Of a DNA stretch of 64,000 bases, positions 7,884 through 52,111 are shown in pieces; the first letter of the stretch is position 1; the number at the start of each line of letters is the position of its first letter. Source of the stretch: an uncultured Lachnospiraceae bacterium (GTDB taxonomy: Bacteria; Bacillota; Clostridia; Lachnospirales; Lachnospiraceae); NCBI GenBank assembly GCA_902774125.1, contig CACYHD010000006.1:1-64000 (forward strand), in the 5' to 3' direction. The position numbers and the translations under genes are program-made. The notes below the pieces were generated by a model. That model was not told where the DNA came from. It ran no database searches and was given only the letters and a program-made list of their open reading frames with translations.

Positions 7884-8636
7884 ATGGCTATAATAGACTT
7901 TCATACACATATATTACCAGGTATTGATGATGGAAGTAGAAATATAGAATCATCCCTAATTATGTTGCAAGAAGAATCGAGACAAGGGATAGATGTTGTC
8001 GTAGTCACTCCACATTTTTATGCCTCAGAAGTCAGCGTTGAAGTCTACTTAGAAAGACGACAGAAGGCATACGACAAGCTAGTTGAGGCAATAGATGAGC
8101 TGAAGCAAAAAGCACAGGCTCAAGATGACGAGCCGGTTAAAATTCCTAAGATTTTGCTCGGCGCAGAGGTGACGTACTTTGAGGATATATCCAGAGCTGA
8201 CAAGATATCAGAATTGGTGATGGAAGGCACAGATATATTGCTGCTGGAGATGCCATTCAAGTCATGGACTCGAGAAGAGTTTGACGAGGTGATGGAAATG
8301 ATCGAGTCTGGCGACTATCAGATCATGTTAGCGCACCTAGAGCGCTTCGCAGCGTTTAGAGGCAACAGGAAGTACATCAAAGAATTATTTCAGACAGACG
8401 CAATCATTCAGTACAACAGTGACAGTTTTCACAACAGAAAATACACCAAGTTGATGATTAAGTCTATGAAAAAAGGAATAGTCCCACTTCTAGGCAGTGA
8501 CTGCCACGGGGTGCATCACAGAGTGCCGGAACTTTTAACGGGACGCAACATGCTCAAAGATAAGATGGGCCAGGAGATGCTAGACCAGATTGACGAGAAG
8601 GGAACCGCAATCTTGTCTCATATTTGTCATATATAA
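7884..8636 (+). CDS. cpsB: PHP-type protein-tyrosine phosphatase of the capsule locus (CpsB/YwqE-like)
   Basis: Manganese-dependent phosphatase that removes phosphate from the tail tyrosines of the BY-kinase and so tunes polysaccharide export. PHP motifs appear in order: DFHTHILPGIDDG at the N-terminus, VVVTPHFY, LLGAEVTYF, IMLAHLERF, and LLGSDCHGVHH near the end. ATG 7884 is chosen because AGGAGGA ends 3 bases upstream and the PHP motif then starts at residue 5, giving 250 aa. First gene of the polysaccharide operon; its kinase partner is at 10706. Confidence 0.92.
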   Translation: MAIIDFHTHILPGIDDGSRNIESSLIMLQEESRQGIDVVVVTPHFYASEVSVEVYLERRQKAYDKLVEAIDELKQKAQAQDDEPVKIPKILLGAEVTYFEDISRADKISELVMEGTDILLLEMPFKSWTREEFDEVMEMIESGDYQIMLAHLERFAAFRGNRKYIKELFQTDAIIQYNSDSFHNRKYTKLMIKSMKKGIVPLLGSDCHGVHHRVPELLTGRNMLKDKMGQEMLDQIDEKGTAILSHICHI

Positions 8637-34935: not shown

Positions 34936-36273
34936 ATGGACAACATCAATGCAACAATATGTAACATAATATCTAATTCGCTGTGGGGGGCTGACGAAAA
35001 GATCGACGCTGCGCCGCTTTCTATGGCTGACTGGACTGAGCTCAAGGCCGAGCTCAACAGTCAGACCGTGGCAGGCATCCCTCTAGAGTACATGATGAAC
35101 AACATGGCGCTTGAGGAGGATGTGAAGGCGGACGTCAGCTTGACGGCTTTTGCTCAGGTGGGGGTTTGGACTCGACTTATGGAGGCCCAGCAAAACCTGA
35201 TCAACCTCCTGGCAGATAACGGCATCGACATGGCAGTAATCAAGGGAATTGTCGCAGGCATCAATTATCCTAAACCTGAGTACAGAGCCATGGGCGATGT
35301 TGATTTTTTTGTGCGCAAAAAAGACTTCGTTAGGACATTCCAGCTGCTTATGGACAACGGTTACGAGGCTCCGGACGGGGACTTCATCGCAGCCAAAGAA
35401 ATCAGCGACGACAAGTATCACCACGTGGAACTGACCAAGGACGGAGTAATCTTCGAGCTTCACAAGGCTATGGCCAGTGCAGGAACCGGCCAGGCCTACG
35501 ATGAACACTTCCACAATATAATAGAAGAAAGTCTAGACCGTATCGACCAGATCACGGTGGACCGATACACTATTCCGGTCTTTCCGGCCATGGTGAACGG
35601 CTTGATTTTTATTAGGCATATCATTCAGCATCTGGCAGAAAGCAAAGGTATCGGACTAAGGCACCTTCTCGACTGGATGATGTTCGTCGACCAATATGTA
35701 GATGACAATTATTGGTATGGTGGCACGTTAGACGGGACATCTGCAGCGGGAAGTGGAACGCTAGACGGGACACCCGTTCCAGAAACTGGCACGTTAGACG
35801 GGACACCTGCAGCCAAAAACAGTTTTCAATCTTGCGTCGACAGTATCGGCCTCAAGGATGCAGCAATCGTAATGACACGTATATGCCAGTTACACCTTGG
35901 CTTGTCCACTGAATCGATAACATGGTGCGCTGATGCAGACGAGCAACTATGCGAAGATATTTTTGCAATCATAATGAACGGTGGCAACTTTGGCCGCAAA
36001 AACGCCCAGGAAAACGAAGGCGCCAACGTATTATATAAGAACAAAAGCGTTTTTGGCTTTTTTGCATCGCTACAGGATCTGGGCATCCGCAACTGGACAT
36101 TCGGCAGAAAACACGCCGTGCTCAGACCTTTCGCCTGGCTGTACCAAATCTGCAGATACATAAGGAAAGGGCTTTTCAGAAAACACCCAATCCGCTCTCT
36201 CAGAGAGGACATCGCCAAGAGCAAAGGCAAGCGAACCGTAATAGAACGACTCAACGTAAAAAAAGATGACTAA
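34936..36273 (+). CDS. Nucleotidyltransferase family protein (NTP_transf_5 type)
   Basis: 445 aa. The nucleotidyltransferase core is VIKGIVAGINYPKPEYRAMG then DVDFFVRKKDF, where the D-x-D metal ligands lie; HHVELTKDGVIFELHKAM follows, with a third acidic ligand in FELH. This matches the PF14907-like proteins often found with HPrK-like, PqqD-like and S24/S26 peptidase genes in peptide-maturation cassettes; such genes lie 8 kb downstream. Three 11-residue repeats (GTLDGTP...) are inserted at about residues 262-294. There is no ribosome binding site; a TATTAT 8 bases before the ATG with CTGTCA 18 bases upstream may give a leaderless message. Confidence 0.78.
   Translation: MDNINATICNIISNSLWGADEKIDAAPLSMADWTELKAELNSQTVAGIPLEYMMNNMALEEDVKADVSLTAFAQVGVWTRLMEAQQNLINLLADNGIDMAVIKGIVAGINYPKPEYRAMGDVDFFVRKKDFVRTFQLLMDNGYEAPDGDFIAAKEISDDKYHHVELTKDGVIFELHKAMASAGTGQAYDEHFHNIIEESLDRIDQITVDRYTIPVFPAMVNGLIFIRHIIQHLAESKGIGLRHLLDWMMFVDQYVDDNYWYGGTLDGTSAAGSGTLDGTPVPETGTLDGTPAAKNSFQSCVDSIGLKDAAIVMTRICQLHLGLSTESITWCADADEQLCEDIFAIIMNGGNFGRKNAQENEGANVLYKNKSVFGFFASLQDLGIRNWTFGRKHAVLRPFAWLYQICRYIRKGLFRKHPIRSLREDIAKSKGKRTVIERLNVKKDD
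35721..35819 (+). repeat. Three in-frame 33-bp tandem repeats
   Basis: Units begin at 35721, 35754 and 35787, each with GACGGGACA in the same place. The middle unit contains GGAACG and CGTTCC facing each other. It encodes 3 x 11 residues inside the nucleotidyltransferase gene. Confidence 0.85.
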
Positions 36274-36485: not shown

Positions 36486-39134
36486 ATGAAACAGATGAAA
36501 AAAACACTTGCTTTTGTTTTAAGTATTGTGATGGTTTTGACATCAATTACTTTTTCAGGAAGCAAAGTAAAAGCGGCAACACTGTCTCAAGATGAGATTG
36601 ACAGTATTGCAGGTAACGGTACAATGACTAACTTAGTACTAAATTCTGCAGTTGAAGCTTATCCTGGTATTGCAGAGGGTAACATAGCTAACATTACTAA
36701 TGGTAGTTTTAGTGGACACGCTGCACTATCTTCAGGATGGGGTTATTCAGGAGAGGCATATGCTGTTTTTGATTTAGGTAATTACTATAAGGCGGAGTCC
36801 TTAGATGAAATCGTTATAGCATATAAGGACTATGCTGATAATGATACAGTTGTAGGTAGAACTTACAATATTCAGTACTCTATGGATGATACTAATTGGG
36901 AGACAAAGTATACTTCTGATACTATCGCAGCGACAGATCTTGAAGATAGTAAAGCTACAGTAAATAATGTGAGTGGTTATACAGGAAACGTAAGATACAT
37001 CAAGATAGATTATCCATCTGTACCAAATTATGGTATTCAGCTTACAGAGATTGCTGTTCTAGCAGCGGACCCAGAATTGGCTCCTATAGATACATGCGCT
37101 GATCCTGCAGCAGTTACTGCAACATCTAATGCTTTTGGACAGATTTCATTTAACATTACAGCAGGTGAGGATCAGGAAGGTTACGTATATTCAGCAACAC
37201 TTGATAGCCCTAATGGAAAACTTCTTAATGCAAGCTGTCAGGCTGGTGTAAATTATACATACGATGGTATAGAAGGTGGCGCGCATACGGTATTCGTTCA
37301 ATCTCATAGTGGAAATGCGATATCACCTGGTATTAGTTCAAATACTGTTACAGTAAATACATATGAAACAAAGGCTGTCGATTCAAATTACAACTATGCA
37401 TTTGGTAAAACTTTCACTTTGGATAGTGGTGCTTCCACAGAAGGAACTGGCAGTGTTACAGATGGTGCAATTGGTACTTCAAATATTGATTATTCGACAG
37501 CATCTAAAGGCAAGGCTGGTTCATGGTTTACTATAGACTTAGGAGATGCTTGGAAAACTACAAGCTTTGAAGCGGTATGTGTGTGGTTTAGATCGGGTGT
37601 TGGTGGAACATATCCAGAACAGGGTGGAATGAAAGTTCAATATTCAACAGATGGAGTAGACTATACAGATGTTGCTACCATAACTCAAAGCGAGTTTACA
37701 GCACAGAAAGGAACTCAGTCTAATCCGTTCAGAATTATGGGTGATGTTTCAGGCGTTACAGATGGTGCAGTACAGTATGTGAGAGTTTATTTCCCTAATG
37801 CTGTAGCATACGGCGCGCAGATTACAGAAATCGGCGTATACGACATAGATGGTGACGCAGAAGAAGCAACCGTAGAAACAGTGGCAGATCCGCTTGGCTT
37901 TACAGCTACTGCAAGTGATTATAATGAAATTGCCGGTACAATTACAGCAGACGTTGACCAGGAGGATTATACATATAATGTTTATTTAGATGGTGACTTG
38001 GCGGCAGAAGGATTGCCAGCTGGTCCATATATTTTAGATGGCGTTGAAGCAGGAACATATGATGTAACAGTTAAGTCATACAAAGATGGATTTACTTCTA
38101 CAGGCTTAACAGTATCAGATGTAACAGTTGCTGATGGCTTTACATATTCTGCTACAACAGGCACAGGCGTTTACGGTGACGTAAGTGATTACGGAATGAA
38201 CCTAGTAACTAAAAACGGTGCTACAATTTCTGGAGTAACTGCTACTGCATCAAATGGCAATGCTACTAATGCTATTGATGGCAATGCAGGTACACGTTGG
38301 GAAGCTTCAGCAAATGATCCTCAGTGGATTAAGGTTGACCTAGGTTCTGTTAAGACAGTAAAAGCAATCGAAGCTTGGTGGGAGACAGCAAGCTCAAAAG
38401 ATTACAATGTTAAAGTTTCAACTGATGACAACACATACAAGTCAGTTGCATTAGTTAGAGGTGCGGCATCAGGAGCTAACAGAAGAGATACAGTTGTTTT
38501 GACTAATGCAGTAAACGCTAGATATGTAATGATTTATGCTACATCAAGAACTACAAACTGGGGACATTCAATTTATGAATTGGCTATTTATGACGGTCAG
38601 GAAGTTCCAGAAAACTATATTGATGTAACAGACTACAAGGCTACAGAAGAAGCTACAGCTCCAACAGCTCCAGCAGGCAAAATTTTCGCAGGTTGGTTCG
38701 AGGATTCTGAGTTCACAACACCATACACAGCAACTACAGGTTATGCTTATGCTAAGTTTATTGACGAAGATGTTTTGACTGTGAAGGCACAGACAAAGAA
38801 TGTAGATGGAAATGATGTAGCTATCAGATTTGTTAGTACAATCGATGAAGGCGTTGATTATCAGGAAGTCGGATTTAAGTTTACAGGAACATACGGAGAT
38901 AGTATAATATCAGAGAAGACTAAATCTTGTCAGTATGTGTATTCAAAGATTACAGCTGCTGGTCAGGAAGTTCTACCAACATCATATAGTGATGACTCTG
39001 CATATTTCTTTACTTACGCAGTTAAGAACCTAGCTAATGATTCTACTTGGAAGGTAACACCATATTTTGTTACACCAGATGGAACAACAGTGTTAGGTAC
39101 AGAGAATTCATTCGAAACAACTTACAACGAGTAG
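36486..39134 (+). CDS. Large secreted protein with three discoidin (F5/8 type C) domains
   Basis: 882 aa. A signal peptide (LAFVLSIVMVLTSITFSGSK, cleavage after VKA) is followed by discoidin-like domains at about 40-195, 300-460 and 565-705, separated by fibronectin-III-like spacers (about 205-295 and 470-550). The C-terminal ~175 residues, starting near GKIFAGWFEDSEFTTPY, combine a Listeria-Bacteroides (Flg_new)-like repeat with an unnamed domain that is also at the end of the protein at 39633. Likely binds carbohydrate or the cell surface; no catalytic domain or anchor motif seen. The ribosome binding site of the next gene, a 38-aa peptide, overlaps its stop codon. Confidence 0.85.
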   Translation: MKQMKKTLAFVLSIVMVLTSITFSGSKVKAATLSQDEIDSIAGNGTMTNLVLNSAVEAYPGIAEGNIANITNGSFSGHAALSSGWGYSGEAYAVFDLGNYYKAESLDEIVIAYKDYADNDTVVGRTYNIQYSMDDTNWETKYTSDTIAATDLEDSKATVNNVSGYTGNVRYIKIDYPSVPNYGIQLTEIAVLAADPELAPIDTCADPAAVTATSNAFGQISFNITAGEDQEGYVYSATLDSPNGKLLNASCQAGVNYTYDGIEGGAHTVFVQSHSGNAISPGISSNTVTVNTYETKAVDSNYNYAFGKTFTLDSGASTEGTGSVTDGAIGTSNIDYSTASKGKAGSWFTIDLGDAWKTTSFEAVCVWFRSGVGGTYPEQGGMKVQYSTDGVDYTDVATITQSEFTAQKGTQSNPFRIMGDVSGVTDGAVQYVRVYFPNAVAYGAQITEIGVYDIDGDAEEATVETVADPLGFTATASDYNEIAGTITADVDQEDYTYNVYLDGDLAAEGLPAGPYILDGVEAGTYDVTVKSYKDGFTSTGLTVSDVTVADGFTYSATTGTGVYGDVSDYGMNLVTKNGATISGVTATASNGNATNAIDGNAGTRWEASANDPQWIKVDLGSVKTVKAIEAWWETASSKDYNVKVSTDDNTYKSVALVRGAASGANRRDTVVLTNAVNARYVMIYATSRTTNWGHSIYELAIYDGQEVPENYIDVTDYKATEEATAPTAPAGKIFAGWFEDSEFTTPYTATTGYAYAKFIDEDVLTVKAQTKNVDGNDVAIRFVSTIDEGVDYQEVGFKFTGTYGDSIISEKTKSCQYVYSKITAAGQEVLPTSYSDDSAYFFTYAVKNLANDSTWKVTPYFVTPDGTTVLGTENSFETTYNE

Positions 39135-39144
39135 GAGGATTAAG

Positions 39145-39261
39145 ATGGCTCAGTATGAAGACCCTGAAATGGAATTATTCGACGACAAACAAATAGTAGT
39201 AGGTGTTCCACCTATTAAAAGTGGCGATGATGATCCGGGGTTTGGGCCTTTGATCGGTTAA
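39145..39261 (+). CDS. Putative precursor peptide 1 (38 aa)
   Basis: Peptide MAQYEDPEMELF... ending in PPIKSGDDDPGFGPLIG. AGGAGG (39133-39138) lies 6 bases before the ATG and overlaps the upstream stop. It shares the N-terminal YxDPExE motif and the IKSG block with the two peptides at 39300 and 42382. Its last 10 residues, DDPGFGPLIG, nearly match the last 10, DDQGFGKLIG, of the membrane protein at 42599. YxxP motifs in leaders are what PqqD-like RRE domains bind in several peptide systems, and a PqqD-like gene lies 4.7 kb downstream. I infer a leader (to IKSG) and an acidic, glycine-containing tail as the product. Confidence 0.7.
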   Translation: MAQYEDPEMELFDDKQIVVGVPPIKSGDDDPGFGPLIG

Positions 39262-39299
39262 TGTAAGTTTTGATTATACTAAGAAAGAGGGTATTAAAG

Positions 39300-39443
39300 A
39301 TGAAAAAGTTTTATAAAGATCCAGAAGCTGAAATTTTGATTTTAGAAGCATCTGTTAGCACATATATTAAAAGTGGCGAATTGGATGGAGATAATTTTGA
39401 TAACGGCGATGGGGAAGATATCGGTTCACTATTAGGTGACTAG
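39300..39443 (+). CDS. Putative precursor peptide 2 (47 aa)
   Basis: Begins MKKFYKDPEAEILILEASVS and continues TYIKSGELDGDNF, ending NGDGEDIGSLLGD. AGAGGG lies 8 bases before the ATG. Its first 25 residues are very close to the peptide at 42382 (YxDPEAE[IL]L[IL]LEASV, then IKSG). The tail NFDNGDGEDIGSLLGD resembles an internal stretch of the membrane protein at 42599 (SFDSGDGDDIGDLVGD). The Asp/Gly/Asn pattern also recalls calcium-binding loops. A terminator follows 24 bases after the stop, so it closes the unit that begins at 36486. Confidence 0.75.
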   Translation: MKKFYKDPEAEILILEASVSTYIKSGELDGDNFDNGDGEDIGSLLGD

Positions 39444-39467
39444 GTTACAGTTTTAATAAATACTAAA

Positions 39468-39497
39468 AGCACTACATGATAAATGTGGTGCTTTTTT
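39468..39497 (+). terminator. Terminator after peptide 2
   Basis: A 10-bp stem, AGCACTACAT with ATGTGGTGCT (one T-G pair), 5-base loop, then a run of T. Confidence 0.9.
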
Positions 39498-39559
39498 GTT
39501 GAAATAAAAAATAGACACCTCCAAAAAATAGAAATGCTTAAACGGTGTTTAATATATGA

Positions 39560-39565
39560 TAAAAT
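39560..39565 (+). promoter_or_regulatory. Extended -10 upstream of the second discoidin-domain protein
   Basis: TGATAAAAT (TAAAAT at 39560-39565) is 68 bases before the ATG. The -35 position is weak. The same TGATAAAATG occurs before the subtilase gene, and both have ACACCTCC 41-45 bases upstream. Confidence 0.4.
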
Positions 39566-39632
39566 GAGAGTAACTGTAATAGTGCATTTTTTGATGTGCA
39601 AAAATGCAACGATATTAAGGAGGTAATTCATT

Positions 39633-42305
39633 ATGAAACTTACTAAATTTAGCAAGAAAATAATTGCTATAGTTAGTGCTTTTGCAATGATTATTGCGGG
39701 AATAGTATATGTACCGAACACTGCAAAGGCGGATGATTATTCAGCATTGACGTTTACTGATATTACAAATAACGCCAATAATGAGTTTAATCAGAATTTG
39801 AAAGGTTCACAAAAAGCCATTAATGCAGGAAGTACATTTAGTACATTAAATGTATGCCAGTATCAGAATGCAGGCTTTAGTGAATTGTATATCGCAGGAC
39901 CATGGAGTGCCGCTGGCTTAGCAGCAACAGTTAACGGAGTTGCTGATAGTGTAACAGTAGAAGGCGCTGGTCTTAGAATTTATAATGCGGCTGATTATCT
40001 AACAAAGAGATACAATGTTATTAAAGTTACAACAACTGACGGAACAGATGGAGAAATTATTATTTTCTGTCCAGAAATTCCGGATGAAGAACCTAGTTCA
40101 GAAGGTCCTGATACACCAACAGTTACAGCAGAACCTACAACTACAACTGAGGCAACTACAGCTGAACCAACAACAGCAAGTGCTTGGGTAGAAATTGGTG
40201 GAGGTGCTGCTAATCAGTGGTACTACAATAATGAAACAAAACAAAATATTTCTAATGTAGTAAATATTCAGCATCCAGGTTGGGCTGATGAAGATGGTGT
40301 ATACATTACAGTTCCTGCAGGTATTTCACAGGTTGATGTTAATGGCGTTACACAAGGTGTTGCTGCCATTGATGGCGCAGGTTTTGTAGTATACTTGTCA
40401 GCGTTAACTAAGAAGATAAATGAAGTAACAGTTACTCAAGGATTAGGCACTTCAAAAATTCAGATTAAAAATGAAAACGGATCAGATGATCCAACAGAAG
40501 AGCCTTCAGAAGAGCCTTCAGTAGAACCTTCAACAGAGGCTCCATCAGAGTCATCAGAGACTCCATCAGAAGAGCCACAGCAGGAATGGATTTCAGCTTT
40601 AGGAAAGTGGGTTCACCGTCAAGCAGATGGTTCATTTATATATGAAGATGGTGCTGACTATAATGCAGTACAGGGTATTACAGCACTTTGGTCTGGCAAC
40701 GGAGCAGAAGTAGAAGTAAGTAACGATACAGCTGATTTATACACATTGCCTATTAATGTTATAAGAAGTGCTCAAGGTGATTGGTCTACTCAGGTACATA
40801 TCAATAAAGAAGGCCTTGATACTACAAAAGTTTATGATGTCACATTGAAGGCTGGTGATACAACAGTATATGAAGGTACTGCAGCAAATGTTGCAGCTTT
40901 TAGAACAACAGTTAACTTGGCAGGCAAACTTGCTGTAGGTCAGACAACTTTAACACTTGAAGTTGAAGAACAACAGATGCCACCAGAACCAGAGGTTCAA
41001 AATATAACAATCAATCCACTTACTGCAGATATTCAAGCTAATCATAACATTTGGGCTAATTGGACTAATCCAACAGGAACAACAAAAGCTTACGTTTATT
41101 TGGAGCAGGTGGACAATGCCCACGCAGCGGCTCTATTGAATAATGCATGGATTTTCAATGACAATGCAGCTCAACCTATGGTTGGTGTTGATAAAGTTGC
41201 TCAAACTAGAGATGGCAGTGTTGTAATAGAAGAAGGACAAACATATACTCTCATTGTTGAGTCTTACGATGCTTGGAATAGACAGACAGGTTATGGTGAG
41301 GTTGAAATCACAATTCCAGGACTTACACCAGAGGAAAGAGAAGTTCAAGAATATTTAGCTAAGATTAATACTACTGAAAACTTAGCTCTAGGTAAAACAC
41401 CAATTGTAGCAGAAGGAAATAATGAAAATACTGCAAACAATATCGTAGATGGTAACAATGGTTCTAGATGGCAAGCTAATAAAGCGATTGACAACACTTA
41501 CTTTGGTGTTGATTTGGGAGCATTGTACTCAATTGATAAGGTTCTTGTAAGTTGGGAAGCATCTAATGCTACTTCTTACGAAATATATGCAGCTGGAAAT
41601 GATGGTGTATATGGTGATACACCTGTGGCTACAGTTTCGGGCTTAGATAACAACAAGGCAGTTGTTAAATTGTCTAAGAATATAGGTGCAGAAGCTAGAT
41701 ATATCAAGGTAGTTGTTACTGGATGGAGTGGAAATGCTTCGGGATATGGTATTTCACCTTACGAACTTGCTGTATTTGGTACACAAGAAGGCTTCTATGA
41801 TGTTTCAGAGTACAAGTCAACAACACCTTATACTTATCCAACAGAAGAAGGCAAAATCTTCGCTGGATGGTTTACAGATGATACATGTACTACACCATAC
41901 ACAGGAACAACTGGTAATGCATACGCTAAGTTCATCGATGCTAAGGTACTAACAGTTAAGTTCCAGAACAAGAATGATGGAACTGCAGTACGTTTCCTAA
42001 GTACAATTGATGACAGCGACTATAATAAGGTTGGTTTCATCTTCACAGGTACATATGGAAATGCAACTATAACTGAAAAGACTAAAGAATGTAATTATGT
42101 ATATTCTAGTATTGTGGCGGCTGGTGTTACTGAAACTGCTTCAGAAGCATTTGAAAATAATGATTCAGCATACTTCTTTACATATGTTGTAAAGGGTATG
42201 GATCCAGAAGTGACTTCTAGAACATTTAATGTTAAAGCTTTCTATGAGACTCTAGATGGAACAACAGTAATAGGACCTGCAAACAATTATCCTCCACAGG
42301 TATAA
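39633..42305 (+). CDS. Large secreted protein with discoidin domain and shared C-terminal region
   Basis: 890 aa. A signal peptide (IIAIVSAFAMIIAGIVYVPN, cleavage near AKA) is followed by two related ~95-residue beta domains (about 35-145 and 185-285), Thr/Glu/Pro/Ser-rich linkers (EEPSEEPSVEPSTEAPSESS), two further beta domains (about 320-450 and 455-570), one discoidin domain (about 580-715) and the same C-terminal region as the protein at 36486 (GKIFAGWFTDDTCTTPYTGT, then VRFLSTIDDSDYNKVGFIFT). No anchor motif. AAGGAGG precedes the ATG. It is followed by another precursor-like peptide, repeating the arrangement of the previous unit. Confidence 0.82.
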   Translation: MKLTKFSKKIIAIVSAFAMIIAGIVYVPNTAKADDYSALTFTDITNNANNEFNQNLKGSQKAINAGSTFSTLNVCQYQNAGFSELYIAGPWSAAGLAATVNGVADSVTVEGAGLRIYNAADYLTKRYNVIKVTTTDGTDGEIIIFCPEIPDEEPSSEGPDTPTVTAEPTTTTEATTAEPTTASAWVEIGGGAANQWYYNNETKQNISNVVNIQHPGWADEDGVYITVPAGISQVDVNGVTQGVAAIDGAGFVVYLSALTKKINEVTVTQGLGTSKIQIKNENGSDDPTEEPSEEPSVEPSTEAPSESSETPSEEPQQEWISALGKWVHRQADGSFIYEDGADYNAVQGITALWSGNGAEVEVSNDTADLYTLPINVIRSAQGDWSTQVHINKEGLDTTKVYDVTLKAGDTTVYEGTAANVAAFRTTVNLAGKLAVGQTTLTLEVEEQQMPPEPEVQNITINPLTADIQANHNIWANWTNPTGTTKAYVYLEQVDNAHAAALLNNAWIFNDNAAQPMVGVDKVAQTRDGSVVIEEGQTYTLIVESYDAWNRQTGYGEVEITIPGLTPEEREVQEYLAKINTTENLALGKTPIVAEGNNENTANNIVDGNNGSRWQANKAIDNTYFGVDLGALYSIDKVLVSWEASNATSYEIYAAGNDGVYGDTPVATVSGLDNNKAVVKLSKNIGAEARYIKVVVTGWSGNASGYGISPYELAVFGTQEGFYDVSEYKSTTPYTYPTEEGKIFAGWFTDDTCTTPYTGTTGNAYAKFIDAKVLTVKFQNKNDGTAVRFLSTIDDSDYNKVGFIFTGTYGNATITEKTKECNYVYSSIVAAGVTETASEAFENNDSAYFFTYVVKGMDPEVTSRTFNVKAFYETLDGTTVIGPANNYPPQV

Positions 42306-42381
42306 TTGCTAGGAATTATTATTCAGACATATAGAGTATTAGTTATAAATGTTAAATAGGTTATATATAGGAGGAGTTAAT

Positions 42382-42522
42382 ATGAAAAAGTATTATATAG
42401 ATCCAGAAGCTGAACTACTATTGCTTGAAGCTTCTGTTCAGACAATTATTAAAAGCGGAGGAGTAGATGAAAACATGAATGATCATGATAATGATTCTAT
42501 TGATGATCTACTAAATCCATAA
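42382..42522 (+). CDS. Putative precursor peptide 3 (46 aa)
   Basis: Begins MKKYYIDPEAELLLLEASVQ and continues TIIKSGGVDENMN, ending DHDNDSIDDLLNP. GGAGGAG lies 5 bases before the ATG. The leader is nearly the same as that of peptide 2, while the acidic tail differs, the usual pattern of precursor peptides with conserved leaders and variable cores. It is followed 9 bases later by a strong terminator whose stem shares AGCACCAC/GTGGTGCT with the one after peptide 2. Confidence 0.75.
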   Translation: MKKYYIDPEAELLLLEASVQTIIKSGGVDENMNDHDNDSIDDLLNP

Positions 42523-42531
42523 AAAAAGATA

Positions 42532-42568
42532 AACAAGCACCACTTAATTGTGGTGCTTGTTTTTTTTA
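42532..42568 (+). terminator. Terminator after peptide 3
   Basis: A 12-bp perfect stem, AACAAGCACCAC with GTGGTGCTTGTT, 6-base loop, long T run. Confidence 0.92.
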
Positions 42569-42598
42569 TATGCTATTATAATAGCGAGGTGATTTATT

Positions 42599-43198
42599 AT
42601 GGATAAGAAAAAAACGATTACAATTTGTAGTATTGTTACAGCAATAGTTATTATTGCGGTGGCTATTTTTTGCATTGCTAGATGCGGCAAGAAAAACGGC
42701 ACAACTAAAGAAACAACAGCAACTAAATATATTGAAATAACTGATAAGGCTGGCAAGGTTGTAGAGACAAAGAAGGTTATTATTAAAGGTAAGAATGGAG
42801 AAGAGACTGTTATAGTTGAGGATGTCAATGACAGTTTTGATTCTGGTGACGGCGATGATATCGGCGACTTAGTAGGCGACAGTGACCAGAAGTCTGATTC
42901 TAAAACTGGCAAAAAAACAAATAAGAAGTCATCAAATTCTTCTAACAAAAAGTCAGGCAAGAGCTCTGCATCAAATTCTTCTGATAAGAAATCTGATGAT
43001 GGTTCTGTGACCACTAAGAGTAATGATTCCAAAAAGGAGAGTGGCGATTCATCTGATGACAAGAAAAAAGATGACAAGGAGGAGACTACTAAGAAGAAGG
43101 ATGATGACAAAAAGCCAGAAACTACTAAAAAACATCAATCAAATTATGATGTAAAAGATAAAGATGATGATCAGGGATTTGGTAAGTTAATTGGATAA
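42599..43198 (+). CDS. Single-pass membrane protein carrying peptide-like C-terminal motifs
   Basis: 199 aa. One membrane segment (ITICSIVTAIVIIAVAIFCI, about residues 7-26) with a short cytoplasmic N-terminus, then an exposed region. Residues about 79-94 (SFDSGDGDDIGDLVGD) resemble the tail of peptide 2. A long Lys/Ser/Asp low-complexity stretch (about 98-180) follows, and the last 14 residues (DKDDDQGFGKLIG at the end) match the tail of peptide 1. A TATAAT (42577-42582) lies just upstream, and GAGGTG precedes the ATG. The HPrK-like gene starts with TTG inside its last codons. Possibly the membrane docking partner or another substrate of the maturation machinery. Confidence 0.75.
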   Translation: MDKKKTITICSIVTAIVIIAVAIFCIARCGKKNGTTKETTATKYIEITDKAGKVVETKKVIIKGKNGEETVIVEDVNDSFDSGDGDDIGDLVGDSDQKSDSKTGKKTNKKSSNSSNKKSGKSSASNSSDKKSDDGSVTTKSNDSKKESGDSSDDKKKDDKEETTKKKDDDKKPETTKKHQSNYDVKDKDDDQGFGKLIG

Positions 43199-43940
43199 AG
43201 ATATTTTATTCTGCTTGATTGCAGGAATTTGTTACAAAATAGATTATAAATATGATTACACCAAGTGGATGTTTAGAGATTATCTGGTTGACGAAACACA
43301 GCTAAAGGGTGATGTGATATATGTATCTTACACTCCTAAAGACATTGAGAAAATCGAAGGCGTTCTTGAGGAAGAAAGAAGTCCAGGATATGTCGAGTAT
43401 ACTTGTATTATGGATAAGATTGCATCAGACCTTCCTAATCACGGCATGTTTTTGATGCATGGGGCGGTTATTGAGTATAACGGTAAGGCTTATATTTTTA
43501 CAGCTCCTAGCGGAACTGGTAAGTCTACACATATTTCACTTTGGAAGAAGTATCTGGGAGATAAGATTCAGATTATCAATGGTGATAAGCCGGAAGTTTC
43601 TTTTGACGATACTAAGGTGTATGTGCATGGAGCTCCCTGGTGTGGCAAGGAGGGCTGGCAGACTAACACAAGCGCTGAACTTGCGGGTGTCTGCGTAGTT
43701 AACCAGAGCAAAAACAATGCTATCAAAACAATTCATCCGGGTAACAATATTGAGTTTTTCCTTACTCAAATCTATATTGGAACCGGAGAATATGATCTGT
43801 TAAAGGTCGTGGATTTATTTACGAAGATGGCTGAAAGAGTTTCATTTTATTCCCTAGATTGTGATATATCAGAGGCTGCAGCTAAGTGTAGTTTTGAGAC
43901 GATGACTGGCGAAAATTGGGGAGAAGCTAAACAGTTCTAA
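43191..43940 (+). CDS. HPr kinase-like protein (HprK-related)
   Basis: 249 aa. The P-loop is IFTAPSGTGKSTHISLW (about residues 103-118), followed by INGDKPEV, where HPr kinase-like proteins have their catalytic/metal Asp. The segment FLMHGAVIEYNGKAYIF before the P-loop is typical. It lacks the N-terminal domain of true HPr kinase and is of the type found beside PqqD-like proteins in peptide cassettes (related in concept to the HprK-related kinases of the HPr-rel-A systems and to the kinases of some lasso clusters). The TTG start overlaps the previous gene by 8 bases, giving translational coupling; the start is not certain. Confidence 0.82.
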   Translation: MDKDILFCLIAGICYKIDYKYDYTKWMFRDYLVDETQLKGDVIYVSYTPKDIEKIEGVLEEERSPGYVEYTCIMDKIASDLPNHGMFLMHGAVIEYNGKAYIFTAPSGTGKSTHISLWKKYLGDKIQIINGDKPEVSFDDTKVYVHGAPWCGKEGWQTNTSAELAGVCVVNQSKNNAIKTIHPGNNIEFFLTQIYIGTGEYDLLKVVDLFTKMAERVSFYSLDCDISEAAAKCSFETMTGENWGEAKQF

Positions 43941-43971
43941 ATAATACTGCTAATATAAGAAAGGCATAAAT

Positions 43972-44238
43972 ATGAGAATAAAAGATGGGTTTGTAATGAG
44001 AGACGTTATGGGGCAGTCTGTTGTTGTGGCGACTGGCGAAGCTAACAAAACGTTCTCGGGAATGATTAAACTGAATGAGACAGGTAAGATTGTGTGGGAA
44101 TCTATAGCGGAAGGTATGAGTCGCGACGAGATAGTGGACAGCATAATTAGTGAGTTTGATGTGGACAAAACAAGAGCGGAAGCTGGAGTTAATACTTTTG
44201 TTAACGATATGATAGAGAAGGGGTTCATTGAAGAATGA
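43972..44238 (+). CDS. PqqD-like protein (RiPP recognition element fold)
   Basis: 88 aa. The PqqD fold is recognisable from MRIKDGFVMRDVMGQSVVVA through IKLNETGKIVWESIAEGMSR to DEIVDSIISEFDVD and a final winged-helix part. PqqD-type domains bind precursor peptide leaders and present them to modifying enzymes; here the YxDPExE peptides are the obvious candidates. GAAAGG is upstream. The stop overlaps the peptidase start (ATGA). Confidence 0.85.
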   Translation: MRIKDGFVMRDVMGQSVVVATGEANKTFSGMIKLNETGKIVWESIAEGMSRDEIVDSIISEFDVDKTRAEAGVNTFVNDMIEKGFIEE

Positions 44239-44723
44239 ATCAGTTAGCAACTAACACCAAAATTGAAGAGGTTCTTGAAGAGCAGGGGTTCTTTATGTGC
44301 TCTACTGTGGGTTATAGCATGTTCCCGATGTTAAGGGATAGGCGAGACATAGTAGTTGTAGAGCCAGTTGAAGAACGACTTAAAAAAAATGATATTGCTT
44401 TGTATAAGCGAGGGGATGGGTATATCCTACACAGAGTGATTAAGGTGTTGCCGGATGAATATATTATCCGCGGTGATAATTGTTATTACAAGGAACACGT
44501 TACCGATGATATGATAATCGGAAAACTTACAGGATTTTATAGAAATCCCAAGAAGACTCCGCCGGAATCTGATAGAAAGCCAGTTGATATGAATGGTGTG
44601 GGATACGCTGTTTATACAAGGGCTTGGCGTTACACATATGGTGTGAGAATGATTTTTGTTCGCTTCAAAAGATTGTGCGGTAGGGCTTTGAGAAAACTGC
44701 GCAGAAGCAACATTGCAAGATGA
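44235..44723 (+). CDS. S24/S26 family (signal peptidase-like) peptidase
   Basis: 162 aa. The catalytic Ser is in TVGYSMFPMLRDRRDIVVVE, and the second box is LYKRGDGYILHRVIKVLP, followed by IIRGDNC. This is the short form of S24/S26 peptidase associated with PqqD and HPrK-like genes. It has no N-terminal membrane anchor; the C-terminus is basic (FKRLCGRALRKLRRS). In this cassette it is the best candidate to cut the precursor leaders, perhaps near the shared IKSG. The overlap with the PqqD-like gene indicates one transcript. Family assignment is firm, substrate is inferred. Confidence 0.82.
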   Translation: MNQLATNTKIEEVLEEQGFFMCSTVGYSMFPMLRDRRDIVVVEPVEERLKKNDIALYKRGDGYILHRVIKVLPDEYIIRGDNCYYKEHVTDDMIIGKLTGFYRNPKKTPPESDRKPVDMNGVGYAVYTRAWRYTYGVRMIFVRFKRLCGRALRKLRRSNIAR

Positions 44724-44882
44724 AAAAAATGCGGGAAGAACCGCATATATACACACTGTCAGAAATACGAAAAACTGTTGAAAAACAGATAACAGTGTGA
44801 TAAACTATTCTTAAGTTGACGAAGAGGGTTTCTTGTGCCCTTTAGGAAAAACATTTTTGTATTAGAACGTGGGAGGAAAACT

Positions 44883-45494
44883 ATGAGAAAATTAAAATTA
44901 ATCGTAAGTAGTCTTATAGTAATGACACTTTTAGTTGGTTCAATGACTGTTGGAGCAGCAGCTCCTAGTGCACAGACTAAGAAATTAGATCCTAAGACAG
45001 CAGCAGTTAGTACTGGTGGTGCAGCATACGGCGACAAGAGCGGATTTGTTAAGGTAGTAGTAGACGGCAAGACACTAGTTGAAGGTACAGATTATATCGT
45101 AACATACGACAAGGTCCCTAAGGATGCCGGTGTTTATACAATCGTTGCAACAATTAAGGGTATTGGTCACTTTACAGGTGAGTTCAAGACAACTGTTAAG
45201 GTTACAGTTAACAAGAAGAAACAGACTTTCAAGAAGAAAACTGTTAAGACTCGTAAGGTAAAAGCTAGCAAGCTAAAGAAGAAGAGAGTTAAGATTAAAC
45301 TTAAAGTTAAGACTAACGGTAAAGGTAAGCTAGTTTATAAGAGAAAATCTAAGAAGATCAAAGTAAGCAAGAAGGGTGTTATCACTTTGAAGAAGGGCTT
45401 GAAGAAGGGCACTTACAAAGTTAAGGTAATGGCTAAGGCTACTAAGAACTACACTAAGACTAAGTGGAAGACTATTAAGATTAAGGTTAAATAA
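44883..45494 (+). CDS. Secreted Lys-rich beta-domain protein
   Basis: 203 aa. A signal peptide (LIVSSLIVMTLLVGSMTVGA, cleavage in the AAAP region) is followed by one Ig-like/MBG-type domain (FVKVVVDGKTLVEGTDYIVT then GVYTIVATIKGIGHFTGEF) and an extremely basic second half (KKKQTFKKKTVKTRKVKASK, later KLKKKRVKIKLKVKTNGKGK). The high positive charge suggests binding to teichoic acid, capsule or DNA at the cell surface. ATG 44883 has GGGAGGA about 5 bases upstream. A weak ATGCGG/CCGCAT hairpin at 44729-44746 lies between it and the peptidase gene. Confidence 0.85.
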   Translation: MRKLKLIVSSLIVMTLLVGSMTVGAAAPSAQTKKLDPKTAAVSTGGAAYGDKSGFVKVVVDGKTLVEGTDYIVTYDKVPKDAGVYTIVATIKGIGHFTGEFKTTVKVTVNKKKQTFKKKTVKTRKVKASKLKKKRVKIKLKVKTNGKGKLVYKRKSKKIKVSKKGVITLKKGLKKGTYKVKVMAKATKNYTKTKWKTIKIKVK

Positions 45495-48338: not shown

Positions 48339-48370
48339 GCTAAAGATTTTGTGCAAAGGGAGGTTTTTTG

Positions 48371-51300
48371 ATGATAAGCAAAAGTAAAAAGATTTGTGCT
48401 ATTGTTTTGTCACTTGCATTAGCTGTAGGTGTGATTAGCTTTGCGGCACCAAAACAGTCAGCAACAACAATGGCCAACGAAAAGACAGTTTATGATGAAA
48501 TCAAACTATCACAGCTGTCTAACAAGACACTTAAGGATGTGGCTGATACAGCACTTATTGACGGTGCCAAGGCAGCCGAGAAGGTTAACTCTTATAGCAA
48601 TAAGGAAGATTACAAGTCTGCACTTAACGCAGCTATGACTTCTTACTATAAGACTAACAACAAAAAACAGATGAAAAAATTTGCGGCTAACTTAGATAAG
48701 AGAGCTGCAGGCGTTGAGGCAGGTTACAAGAAGGCTGCCAAGGAACGCGCGAAGGGTGCCAAAAATGGTTTTGTACCTGGTGAGGTTACTGCTATTTTTG
48801 ACGCTGATCTAACTAAGAAAGAAATCGAGGACGTATGTAAGTCACAGGATGCTACTCTTAAGAAGTGCTATAAGATTCATACTGGCGATTACATGACAGT
48901 CATTAACATTTCTAAGGGCCAGACAGTAGATGAGGCTTCTGCGGCTTTTTCTAAGCTAAGCTTCGTACAGGCGGCTGACAGCAACGACCTTGCTAAGCCT
49001 ACAGCAAGCCCAGAACTTGCTAACCTAACTAACGACCCTTACATTGGCGAAGAATATCACTTCGACAACATGCACGTTAAGGGCGCTTGGGATTACTTAA
49101 GAGAGCACGCGCACAAAAAAGTTAAGGTTGCTGTAATCGACGTAGGTTGCTACTGGGATAACCCTGATATCAAAAACGTTGTTACAGACGAGTCATACGA
49201 CTTCGAAGAGGACAAGCCTGTTAAGGATGTTACATATAATTCTAAGCAGAGCCACGGAACAGCAGTTGTTGGTGTTTTGGCGGCTGAGTCTAACAACGGT
49301 AAGCTTCTAGCCGGTGTAGCAAGCGGATACGATAACAGTATTTGTGACGTTATGCTACTTCAGGCTGGTAGATATTATTCTGATACTAACAGTTATTCAT
49401 TGCCTAATGATAATACTTTTGAGGCGCTTAACTACGCTCTAGCTCATGGTGCACAAGTTGTGAATATGAGTTATGGTGCAGAAAGTTCTAACACAACTGT
49501 TGATACATATTTCAAAAAATTATATAAGGCTGGTATTGTACTAGTTGCAGCAGCAGGAAATAATAACTCATCAGCAACTTTTTATCCATCAGACTCACCA
49601 TATGTTATTTCGGCAGCAGCTTCTGACAGAAACAATGCTAAGGCTTCATTCTCTAACTGGGGAAGCAAAAAAGATATACTTGCCCCTGGAGATTATATGC
49701 CATGCCTAAGCTACTATAAAGATTCTATAGGTTATGCTAGTGGTACATCATTCGCATCACCTGCTACAGCGGCGGTTGCGGCAATGATGCTATCAGTTAA
49801 TCCTAATCTTAATACATACGATGTAGGACGTATCATGCAGAATACTGATACTACATGTACTGATCAGGATACTAAAGAAAAATTTGATCACGGTGTTATC
49901 AACGCCGAAAAATGTGTCAAGAGAGCAGATGGATATAATCCAAAGGACACATTTGAAAATGAGACAGAAAGAAGACTTGTAGATATTGCCTACAAGGCTA
50001 ACGTCGTTTCCGATTGTGGAATCGAAGGGTACCCGCTTAACAACATTAATGATATGAACGAAAACACTTGGGGTGGAGTTACTCCAGGAAGCAGACAGAC
50101 AATTACTTTGAACTTTGATAAGCAGTATGAGATGAGTTATATCAAGGTTAAGTTCGCTAATCAGGCAGATGGTGCGATATTCTATGCTAGCTCAGAAAAC
50201 GGTACAACATTTAGTGATTTGAGCTATAGTATGGGGCCACCGGTTTCCGGAGATCATGAATGCTATGCATACTATCCTGACAAGGGAGCACTTCGTACAG
50301 TTAAGTCTATTCAGCTCAAGCTTTTCTCACTTAGAGAGAACGCTTATATCAAAGAAGTTGAGGTATGGGCATACGAAGACGTTCCAAGAGCTGCAGACAG
50401 TTGCACAATGGACGAAATGATTTTTGCCCCTGATAATCTTAAGGCTGAGATTCTTGGATATCACAAAGTTAAGTTGACATGGGACGTTACAGATCAGATG
50501 AGAGCCAAAGGCTACGAGTTCGACGTATATGATGAAGGTGCTCTCGTTGCTACAACAAAGGAAAACAGCATTATACTTAATGATACAGTAGGACGCGCCG
50601 GTGGATTGATGTATGGAGTTAGATCCAAGTACAATGGTAAGGTTTCATCGGATGTAGCTACATATTCAACAAGCATTAGCTGGCATAACTATACAACCAG
50701 CCAGCAGGAATCAACGACTCAGAATAACGCTATTTTGACTAACTTGTCATACAATAAGCCTGCGTTTGCATCATCAGAGGAAAATGCCGGAACTAAGGCA
50801 GAATTCGCTTTTGACGGCAACGAAAACACAAGATGGTCATCACAGTGGACAGATGACGAGTGGATTTATGTGGATCTTGGTAAGGTTTGCACAATTAACA
50901 AGGTGACAATCAAGTGGGAAGCAGCTAGAGCAGCAGTTTATGACACATATCTATCTACAGATGGTGAGAACTGGACTAAGTATGCTGCTAACGGCCAAAA
51001 CGCTGAGGAAACATCAAATACTTTGGGCAACAGACCAGCTAGATACGTTAAGATGGTAGGTGTTAAACGTAACACAGGTTACGGATACTCAATTTATGAA
51101 ATGAAGGTTTGGGGTTATGACAACGTTGCAGAGACAACAGTTGCTCCAACTGATCCTACAACAACAATTGCTCCAACAACTACTAAGGAGACAACAATCG
51201 CTCCTACAACAACTGTAGTTCCAACAACAAAGATTGACGGTAGAAGAATTATCACAGGCAAATACGATGTTTCTAAGGAAAACGTTGCTGCCGGCAAAAC

Positions 51301-52111
51301 AGCATTCGCTTCATCAGAAGAAAATGGCGGTGTTAAAGCTGACAAAGTTTGCGACGGTGACATGAACACAAGATGGTCATCACAGTGGACAGACGATGAA
51401 TGGATCGTTGTGGATTTGGGTGAGGTTATGCCAATTGCTCAGGTTAAACTTCACTGGGAAGCAGCATACGGTAGAGACTACGTTGTACAGTTCTCAGAAG
51501 ACGGAGAAACATACTACGATAAGAGAACTACAACAAACAATAGTCTAAGAGACACAATAGAAGGTTTCCCTGCTGAGTACACAAGATACATCAGGGTTAA
51601 GTGCAGCAAGAGAGCTACAGGCTATGGATACTCACTATTCGAGATTGAAGCTTTCCCTGCAATTCTAAGTGGTGAAACAACTGTTGCTCCAACAACAGTT
51701 GCACCAACTACAAGCATGCCTCAGTTCACTAACCTTGCACTAGGCAAAAACGCAACTGCTTCAACATACGAGAACGACTCAATGACGGCAGTAAAAGCAT
51801 TCGACGGTGACATGAACACAAGATGGGCTTCGGCTTGGGAAGATAATCAGTTCATTAGAGTTAACCTAGAATCAGTAAGATACATCAACCATATTGTAAT
51901 CAACTGGGAGGCTGCCTACGGCAAGTCTTACGAAATCCAGTTGTCCAATGAAGGCAAGGTATGGAATACTAAAAAGGTTATTACTAACTCAGACGGCGGC
52001 ATTGACACTGTTCAGATTGGTGACAGAGCTCAGTTCGTAAGAGTAGTATGTACAGAAAGAGGAACTAACTACGGATTCTCAATGTTTGAGATGGCCGTAA
52101 TGGGTTACTAA
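48371..52111 (+). CDS. Secreted subtilisin-like serine protease with discoidin domains
   Basis: 1,246 aa. A signal peptide (ICAIVLSLALAVGVISFAAP) is followed by a propeptide to about 205. The S8 domain follows at about 215-515 with the catalytic triad: Asp in VAVIDVGCYWD, His in QSHGTAVVGVLAAES, Ser in ASGTSFASPATAAVAAM. After it come a divergent discoidin domain (about 530-670), a fibronectin-III-like domain (about 690-770) and three clear discoidin domains (about 785-915, 965-1090, 1115-1246) joined by Thr/Pro-rich linkers. ATG 48371 has GGGAGG 7 bases upstream; a TTG one codon earlier is less well placed. No anchor motif. It could process the nearby secreted proteins or external substrates. 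Confidence 0.92.
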   Translation: MISKSKKICAIVLSLALAVGVISFAAPKQSATTMANEKTVYDEIKLSQLSNKTLKDVADTALIDGAKAAEKVNSYSNKEDYKSALNAAMTSYYKTNNKKQMKKFAANLDKRAAGVEAGYKKAAKERAKGAKNGFVPGEVTAIFDADLTKKEIEDVCKSQDATLKKCYKIHTGDYMTVINISKGQTVDEASAAFSKLSFVQAADSNDLAKPTASPELANLTNDPYIGEEYHFDNMHVKGAWDYLREHAHKKVKVAVIDVGCYWDNPDIKNVVTDESYDFEEDKPVKDVTYNSKQSHGTAVVGVLAAESNNGKLLAGVASGYDNSICDVMLLQAGRYYSDTNSYSLPNDNTFEALNYALAHGAQVVNMSYGAESSNTTVDTYFKKLYKAGIVLVAAAGNNNSSATFYPSDSPYVISAAASDRNNAKASFSNWGSKKDILAPGDYMPCLSYYKDSIGYASGTSFASPATAAVAAMMLSVNPNLNTYDVGRIMQNTDTTCTDQDTKEKFDHGVINAEKCVKRADGYNPKDTFENETERRLVDIAYKANVVSDCGIEGYPLNNINDMNENTWGGVTPGSRQTITLNFDKQYEMSYIKVKFANQADGAIFYASSENGTTFSDLSYSMGPPVSGDHECYAYYPDKGALRTVKSIQLKLFSLRENAYIKEVEVWAYEDVPRAADSCTMDEMIFAPDNLKAEILGYHKVKLTWDVTDQMRAKGYEFDVYDEGALVATTKENSIILNDTVGRAGGLMYGVRSKYNGKVSSDVATYSTSISWHNYTTSQQESTTQNNAILTNLSYNKPAFASSEENAGTKAEFAFDGNENTRWSSQWTDDEWIYVDLGKVCTINKVTIKWEAARAAVYDTYLSTDGENWTKYAANGQNAEETSNTLGNRPARYVKMVGVKRNTGYGYSIYEMKVWGYDNVAETTVAPTDPTTTIAPTTTKETTIAPTTTVVPTTKIDGRRIITGKYDVSKENVAAGKTAFASSEENGGVKADKVCDGDMNTRWSSQWTDDEWIVVDLGEVMPIAQVKLHWEAAYGRDYVVQFSEDGETYYDKRTTTNNSLRDTIEGFPAEYTRYIRVKCSKRATGYGYSLFEIEAFPAILSGETTVAPTTVAPTTSMPQFTNLALGKNATASTYENDSMTAVKAFDGDMNTRWASAWEDNQFIRVNLESVRYINHIVINWEAAYGKSYEIQLSNEGKVWNTKKVITNSDGGIDTVQIGDRAQFVRVVCTERGTNYGFSMFEMAVMGY

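Follow-up and report, generated by a model that had tools for sequence, protein, structure and literature searches.

A Lachnospiraceae gene cassette resembling the LPP pathway, with precursor peptide genes paired to surface-protein genes

Organisation of the cassette

We analysed a 64,000-nucleotide stretch (the window; positions 1 to 64,000 of contig CACYHD010000006.1, here contig C6) from the genome of an uncultured Lachnospiraceae bacterium (GCA_902774125.1), an assembly of 1,915,145 bases in 86 contigs that is 92.7% complete. Between 34.9 and 44.7 kb, with every gene on the plus strand, lies a cassette encoding three short precursor peptides, two large surface proteins and a set of candidate maturation enzymes. 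These enzymes resemble those of the linear polyphosphorylated peptides (LPP), known from the lpp cluster of Paenibacillus alginolyticus (Popov et al., Nat Commun, May 2026; PMC13381572), and the peptide genes are paired with those of the surface proteins.

The first gene of the cassette encodes an NTP_transf_5 nucleotidyltransferase (34936-36273; PF14907, 4.6e-28), an LppN-type tailoring enzyme like PsmN. It is followed by secreted surface protein 1, of 882 amino acids (36486-39134; F5_F8_type_C, 2.3e-29), which carries an FN3-like domain at its C-terminus (within 38622-39131; domain profile, 2.8e-70). Ten bp downstream begins pepA (39145-39261), encoding a 38-residue precursor with a conserved serine, Ser26, and the tail GDDDPGFGPLIG, and then pepB (39300-39443), encoding 47 residues with conserved Ser25 and the tail FDNGDGEDIGSLLGD. 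A terminator-like hairpin (39465-39495; -16.9 kcal/mol, z -6.5), absent from the output of a consensus scan for terminators, closes this unit. Surface protein 2, of 890 amino acids, is likewise a secreted F5/8C protein by Pfam (39633-42305) and ends in the same domain, detected with the domain profile (within 41793-42302). The gene for a 46-residue precursor with conserved Ser25, pepB2 (42382-42522), follows after 76 bp, with a second hairpin 3' of it (42531-42562; 13-pair stem, -22.9 kcal/mol, z -8.2), and each unit of surface protein and peptide in the window is closed in this way.

The remaining genes encode a membrane-anchored protein of 199 amino acids with an N-terminal hydrophobic segment (42599-43198), which we call the tail protein after its matches to the tails of pepA and pepB; an LppK-type, HPrK-like kinase with a TTG start (43191-43940); an LppB-type, PqqD-like RiPP (ribosomally synthesised and post-translationally modified peptide) recognition element, or RRE (43972-44238; Pfam PqqD, 2.3e-15); and a probable LppS-type S24/S26 peptidase of the archaeal/SipW type (44235-44723). 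A preliminary description of this locus had reported three small peptide genes with ribosome sites and a shared YxDPExE motif beside HPrK-like, PqqD-like and S24/S26 genes in overlapping frames. Both groups of genes hold up here, the peptide genes each with a purine-rich ribosome site and the enzymes through a fold model, Pfam and, for the peptidase, profiles that score below their cut-offs. The overlaps are real for the tail protein and kinase genes (8 bp) and for the PqqD-like and peptidase genes (4 bp), whereas the kinase and PqqD-like genes lie 31 bp apart. That description had overlooked the nucleotidyltransferase gene, the surface-protein partner and the membrane-anchored protein with both tails.

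The order surface protein(s), pepA, pepB, tail protein, kinase, PqqD-like protein and peptidase is kept, to the limits of the contigs, in eight genomes of the genus, including this one, in which an additional surface protein and pepB2 are inserted. Genome G012 has two pepB genes and no pepA, the set of G008 is complete but divergent, with the nucleotidyltransferase downstream (Pfam, 5e-36), and G006 retains one peptide, the PqqD-like protein and the peptidase, with no kinase gene in between. Relatives of the nucleotidyltransferase lie near the cassette in 4 of 9 sister-species loci, several of which are too short to show one, and in G008. A kinase of this profile, counting any copy, is present in 23 of the 24 genomes of the genus.

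We also noted that the surface protein before the peptides of G016 (L018, 80-2250) is read in two frames, its domain being split by a stop. The cassettes of G012 and G006 adjoin LytR_cpsA_psr (1e-16 and 2e-17), Wzz (3e-12 and 2e-13) and AAA_31 ATPase genes (L023, 6376-8959; L026, 3079-5437). In the window a Lys-rich, apparently secreted protein of 211 amino acids lies 3' of the peptidase (44859-45494), and several sister species have a counterpart in the same position.

Precursor peptides and the conserved serine

The window contains three occurrences of the DNA pattern for YxDPExE, and none of 100 shuffles contains one; across the whole assembly it is again found three times, always within this cassette, and the reversed pattern is not found. 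Pooled over ten pairs from five sister species, dN/dS was 0.07 for pepA, 0.18 for pepB, 0.19 for the tail protein and 0.08 for the kinase. The low values for pepA and pepB show that the peptides are coding, as first described, and under purifying selection.

It had also been proposed that cutting takes place near an IKSG block. This block is common to the three window peptides and missing from their relatives, so that a general role in cutting is not supported; what stays conserved is its serine. A serine 18 to 22 residues after the tyrosine of the YxxP-like motif is present in 9/9 pepA, 12/12 pepB and six of six chosen further peptides of the genus, a placement reached by 0, 0 and 3 of 2000 shuffles respectively. 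For comparison, Ser3 of LppA lies at Tyr+18 (PMC13381572). In other genera the serine is found in 35 of 39 peptides, a set made up of 42 peptide-search rows minus two from the own genome and that of G234, where the match (positions 11-46) falls within a frame of 599 amino acids. The corresponding shuffle test used the 34 of these with a close upstream gene, and none of 2000 shuffles reached the observed 31/34. Overall, 62 of 66 distinct peptides have a YxxP-like motif with a serine in this interval. Since the serine columns are part of the profiles with which the peptides were detected, the conservation of this residue is not wholly independent of the search. From the sequences we infer that the conserved serine (Ser26 of pepA, Ser25 of pepB and pepB2) is the phosphate acceptor. 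Within the genus the peptides are frequently paired, and those that accompany a second type of surface-protein domain (see below) end in GWTGLF/Y.

Candidate maturation enzymes

The kinase is predicted to adopt an HprK/PEPCK-type fold. Its AlphaFold2 model has a pLDDT (predicted local distance difference test) of 92.6, and PEPCK or HprK accounted for all of the best 50 matches listed in each fold search of the PDB. The P-loop residues and the histidine of the LMHG motif (His90) are invariant among the relatives aligned. Searched against the PDB, the PqqD-like profile matched the lasso RREs TbiB1 (3e-6) and PbaB1 (1e-5) and the crystal chain of LppB, 9x8z (1.3e-4). In LppB the leader's Tyr and Pro sit in a pocket; in an alignment read by hand, residues N35, F76, I58 and M80 (invariant) correspond to its pocket residues N33, F74, I56 and M78, and F62 to Y60. 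The peptidase matches Peptidase_S24 (8e-4) and the archaeal signal peptidase I family TIGR02228 (2.3e-6), both below the cut-offs. Its invariant Ser28 and His66 are 38 residues apart, as against 39 for the S29 and H68 reported for LppS, a comparison made by spacing and not by alignment. Asp81 is invariant as well, and 8/9 sequences have an aspartate at position 92 (D93 in LppS).

The own genome encodes a second set of kinase, PqqD-like protein and S24 peptidase on contig C42 (L017, 6290-9580), together with an MsbA-like exporter (ABC_membrane and ABC_tran). The C42 kinase is 32% identical to that of the window over 176 residues, and no peptide gene was seen beside this set. Two further loci encode MsbA-like ABC exporters that are fused to a domain with a match to the S24/S26 profile (L274, 2406-4673, 755 amino acids; L275, 2982-5165, 727 amino acids), a layout like that of C39 peptidase-exporters with a different protease. 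L275 and L114, on contigs of equal length (70016), are counted once. In three genomes the peptidase-exporter is followed by a protein of about 320 amino acids that has a single hydrophobic segment, at its N-terminus (L274, 1468-2439; L275, 2027-2992; L276, 11903-12880); that of L275, the one scanned of the three, has no Pfam match.

Pairing of peptide and surface-protein genes

Surface proteins 1 and 2 share a C-terminal region of 170 residues, of which Pfam covers the start alone (Flg_new, below cut-off); structure prediction models the remainder as an FN3-like sandwich. The own genome has two such first-type domains, both in the cassette and each followed by a peptide gene. Other genomes of the genus use a second-type domain (alignment A12), and 17 of the 20 strong examples (E <= 1e-40) have a peptide match 13-33 bp downstream, measured from match to match. 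Seen from the peptides, 34 of 45 peptide-profile hits in the genus adjoin a domain of either type. The other 11 comprise six tail-only hits in other proteins, two at contig ends and three that are unexplained. A subtilase of 1247 amino acids elsewhere in the window (48368-52111) has three F5/8C stretches and does not carry the C-terminal domain shared by surface proteins 1 and 2.

Outside the own genome, 34/39 peptide genes are preceded, at a distance of no more than 60 bp, by a gene of at least 100 amino acids on the same strand. Of the upstream proteins, 28 have a complete start, and 24 of these are positive in a crude signal-peptide test; for background genes the figure is 32 of 121. The C-terminal 150 residues are shared with at least one other upstream protein in 26/34 (BLASTP, E < 1e-3). 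Two groups within one family, f11, have C-terminal domains that are alike (HHalign E 1e-6, probability 91%). The likeness between the domains of the genus and those of f11 is distant at best (E 0.002-0.003, probability 10-13%); the first-type domain profile reaches f11 proteins at E 1e-6 to 1e-22. The idea that peptide genes occur solely beside the trio of kinase, PqqD-like and peptidase genes is ruled out, the kinase being the next gene for a single one of the 39 (in G080).

We surveyed 295 genomes drawn from the order, with a kinase threshold of E <= 1e-10, and found the peptide in 20, the kinase in 46 and the domain in 23. Two genomes (G260, G266) were excluded from the domain count, their matches (positions 3-61 and 8-49 only) representing the repeat before the domain. 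All 20 peptide genomes have the kinase, compared with 26 of the 275 that lack the peptide (p 1e-18), and it is present in 22/23 domain genomes compared with 24/272 others (p 2e-19). The domain itself occurs in 13 of the 20 peptide genomes and in 10 of the 275 others. Co-occurrence of the peptides with the trio, which the preliminary description had put forward as a test, is thus seen for the kinase, the part that this genome-by-genome count covers. The p-values overstate independence, because most of the genomes with peptide, kinase or domain belong to one family.

Operons in other genera provide independent support for the pairing. Those of G126 and G176 run from the domain protein through the peptide and the kinase and PqqD-like genes to an S24 peptidase fused to an MsbA-like exporter; G259 shares this arrangement, its peptidase-exporter being split over two frames, and two loci of one metagenome-assembled genome (L108, L128) hold further such operons. 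G080 has, one after the other, genes for a surface protein, peptide, kinase, PqqD-like protein, peptidase and exporter. The domain match of its surface protein is weak (17.4 bits, with none at 1e-3) and ends 3 residues from the C-terminus. A strict peptide filter applied to 80 kinase loci gave L097-L104 and perhaps L148 as real candidates; hits in 15 further loci were taken as chance frames. The filter overlooked YxxH and similar variants in L108 and L128, and the count of 41 loci with an S24 peptidase among the 80 is too low, as fused peptidase-exporters had been counted as ABC. In L148 (2028-7092; Streptococcus sp. 121) a cluster of kinase, PqqD-like, S24, ABC and NTP transferase genes has a peptide with a YTSP leader-like motif on the opposite strand.

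Peptide tails in other proteins

The tail protein contains a pepB-type tail (42830-42880), a linker rich in Lys, Ser and Asp, and a pepA-type tail at its C-terminus (43151-43195), and this architecture is the same in sister species. In the window its match to pepA or pepB was reached by none of 1000 shuffles. Across nine genomes at most 7 of 1000 shuffles reached the score against pepA in each, and for 8/12 pepB peptides at most 1 of 1000 did so. G019 and G008, two divergent species, show a joint change of the A tail in peptide and tail protein; among close species matched and mismatched pairs of tails are indistinguishable. The B tail also ends a frame of about 190-220 amino acids elsewhere in 8 of the 24 genomes of the genus, and the two of these that were read begin like signal peptides.

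Two secreted proteins, each encoded beside a pyruvate-phosphate-dikinase-like gene and far from the cassette, end in a pepB-type tail (GDGDDIxDLI; L091, 5904-6479; L092, 4998-5546). The L091 protein, the one scanned, contains a Big_2 domain. L092 further encodes a protein of 136 amino acids (7986-8396) with an N-terminal hydrophobic segment and the end GEDEGWSPIVTPDDLKN, which is like the pepA-type tail.

A model for the cassette and its alternatives

Our analysis directly observes gene content, coding, conservation, the sharing of tails, the pairing of genes and co-occurrence at the level of genomes. The maturation set resembles a variant of the known LPP type. Because its parts are like those of LPP, the path from leader binding through Ser phosphorylation and leader cutting to export of the core is likely to operate here as well, by analogy with the published system (PMC13381572). 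The PqqD-like RRE would bind the YxxP leaders of pepA, pepB and pepB2, and the kinase would phosphorylate the conserved serine about 20 residues past the tyrosine. The NTP transferase may attach a further group. The peptidase would then cut off the leader a few residues before the serine, and an MsbA-like exporter, probably the one encoded on C42, would export the core. Leader recognition, kinase modification and cutting by the peptidase had all been suggested from the window alone and agree with LPP. The further suggestion of a wholly new kind of modification was dropped, as Ser polyphosphorylation is already published for an equivalent kinase (PMC13381572).

From the genetics, it is probable that peptide and surface protein work together, and we incline, a little less firmly, to the view that the cassette is a clostridial variant of the LPP pathway serving a family of surface proteins. 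A leaderless tail on exported proteins is a poor fit as an RRE-dependent substrate and is easier to understand as the ligand of a shared partner outside, and for this reason we propose a docking model. The C-terminal tail of the core would bind the surface proteins of the adjacent upstream genes at their FN3-like C-terminal domain, and the membrane-anchored tail protein, with both tails on a long linker, would hold the surface proteins at the cell or compete with the peptide. That peptide and surface protein bind through the tail is possible on the genetic evidence, at somewhat less than even odds. The fuller picture of a RiPP display system in Clostridia, in which a phosphopeptide is the ligand of an FN3-like sorting domain and a tail-presenting membrane protein fixes the surface proteins to the cell, is speculative and rather unlikely as a whole.

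Several observations weigh against these readings. The leader consensus here is YxxPExE as against YxxPxVLxHQxIxFETxxS in LPP, and the HQ and FET parts were not seen in these peptides. The RRE has no equivalent of Asp70 of LppB, which is described as bonding the leader tyrosine, and has Gly72 in the window. A Pfam scan found no exporter in the window cassette. Four of the 39 peptides from other genera lack the serine, including the one in the G080 operon described above, and the proline of YxxP is replaced in G176, G259, L108 and L128. As to the pairing, a dedicated peptide is missing for many domain proteins. Within the genus a peptide hit lies within 600 bp of 13/46 first-type domains (after removal of the fragment rows G016:C17:1757 and G022:C15:4857) and within 250 bp of 20/63 second-type hits at E <= 1e-5, and a weak second-type domain on contig C4 of the own genome (E 2e-13) has no peptide hit. 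The co-occurrence survey counts genomes and not independent events, 18 of the 20 peptide genomes belonging to f11. Sharing of tails fails the shuffle test for 4/12 pepB peptides (pepB2 of the window, that of G018 and both of G012), and the tail protein fits the peptides of its own species best or equal best in 5/9 species for the A tail and 3/10 for the B tail.

RiPPs are often signals or antimicrobials, and the mature peptide could be one of these, with the tail protein as an immunity protein, receptor or decoy copying the core and the surface proteins as merely co-regulated colonisation factors. The membrane location of a protein carrying copies of the core, and the frequent pairing of peptides in the genus, would suit such a role. 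Purifying selection on the peptides in five sister species argues against it, and the proteins of the window cassette that were scanned include no recognisable receptor kinase or C39 exporter. Furthermore, the peptide follows a surface-protein gene in several families, even far from the maturation genes, and an antimicrobial would need no such partner. We consider this explanation unlikely.

An equally unlikely alternative is that the peptide carries a glycan or other group: the NTP transferase would extend the phosphoserine, which would be joined to a wall or capsule polymer and so link polymer and surface protein. In pseudomycoidin, a kinase and a nucleotidyltransferase gave a phosphorylated and hexosylated serine (PMC9266682). 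LPP clusters are frequently hosted by capsule loci (PMC13381572), and the LytR_cpsA_psr, Wzz and AAA_31 genes beside the G012 and G006 cassettes would be in keeping with this. However, no polymer genes were found among the window cassette proteins scanned, and deletion of lppN is reported to cause no detectable change of product (PMC13381572). The carrier role would in any case extend the docking model more than rival it. On a last alternative, the peptides would never be matured and would serve the surface proteins as small regulators or chaperones, with the trio acting elsewhere. This would fit the rarity of a directly neighbouring kinase gene (1/39 in other genomes) but is very improbable given the kinase in 20/20 peptide genomes, the LPP-like leader motif and serine spacing, and a trio adjoining a peptide in G080, G126, G176, G259 and the window.

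Sortase motifs and S-layer domains are known means of attaching surface proteins. If the display model is true, a modified peptide would hold them instead. Docking of this kind would be a principle of surface attachment new to us, and would offer a handle on the display of large surface proteins by such bacteria.

Comparison with known systems

The kinase matches the families of HprK-related kinase A and SynChlorMet ScmC weakly, far below their curated cut-offs (TIGR04352, 20.1 bits for a cut-off of 200; TIGR04249, 27.8 bits for a cut-off of 125). The paeninodin and pseudomycoidin lasso clusters are alike in having an RRE (B1), an HPrK-like kinase that (poly)phosphorylates serine and a nucleotidyltransferase (PMC9266682). 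A Pfam scan of 20 window proteins (29.5-52.1 kb) found neither a macrolactam synthetase (C) nor a B2 protease, and the window leaders have a tyrosine where those of Bacillota lasso peptides usually have a tryptophan (PMC9266682).

The closest likeness is to LPP, in which an RRE recognises the leader, a kinase polyphosphorylates serine and a peptidase cuts off the leader. Both systems have a discrete PqqD-type RRE, an HprK-like kinase, an NTP transferase and, probably, an archaeal/SipW-type leader peptidase, and both have short precursors with a YxxP-like leader motif, a serine near the expected place and no cyclase. LPP has an MsbA-like exporter in the cluster, which the window cassette lacks. 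The main text of PMC13381572 nowhere mentions surface protein, lipoprotein, secreted, cell wall, Clostridia or Lachnospir, and we found no report in the open-licence literature of a link between such peptides and surface proteins. In several clostridial families, LPP-like precursors go together with surface proteins sharing a C-terminal domain, and this offers a first lead to the role of the peptide, with a concrete partner that can be tested. Unlike LPP, as far as that system is described, the cassette pairs its peptide genes with surface-protein genes and copies the tails of its peptides in a membrane-anchored protein.

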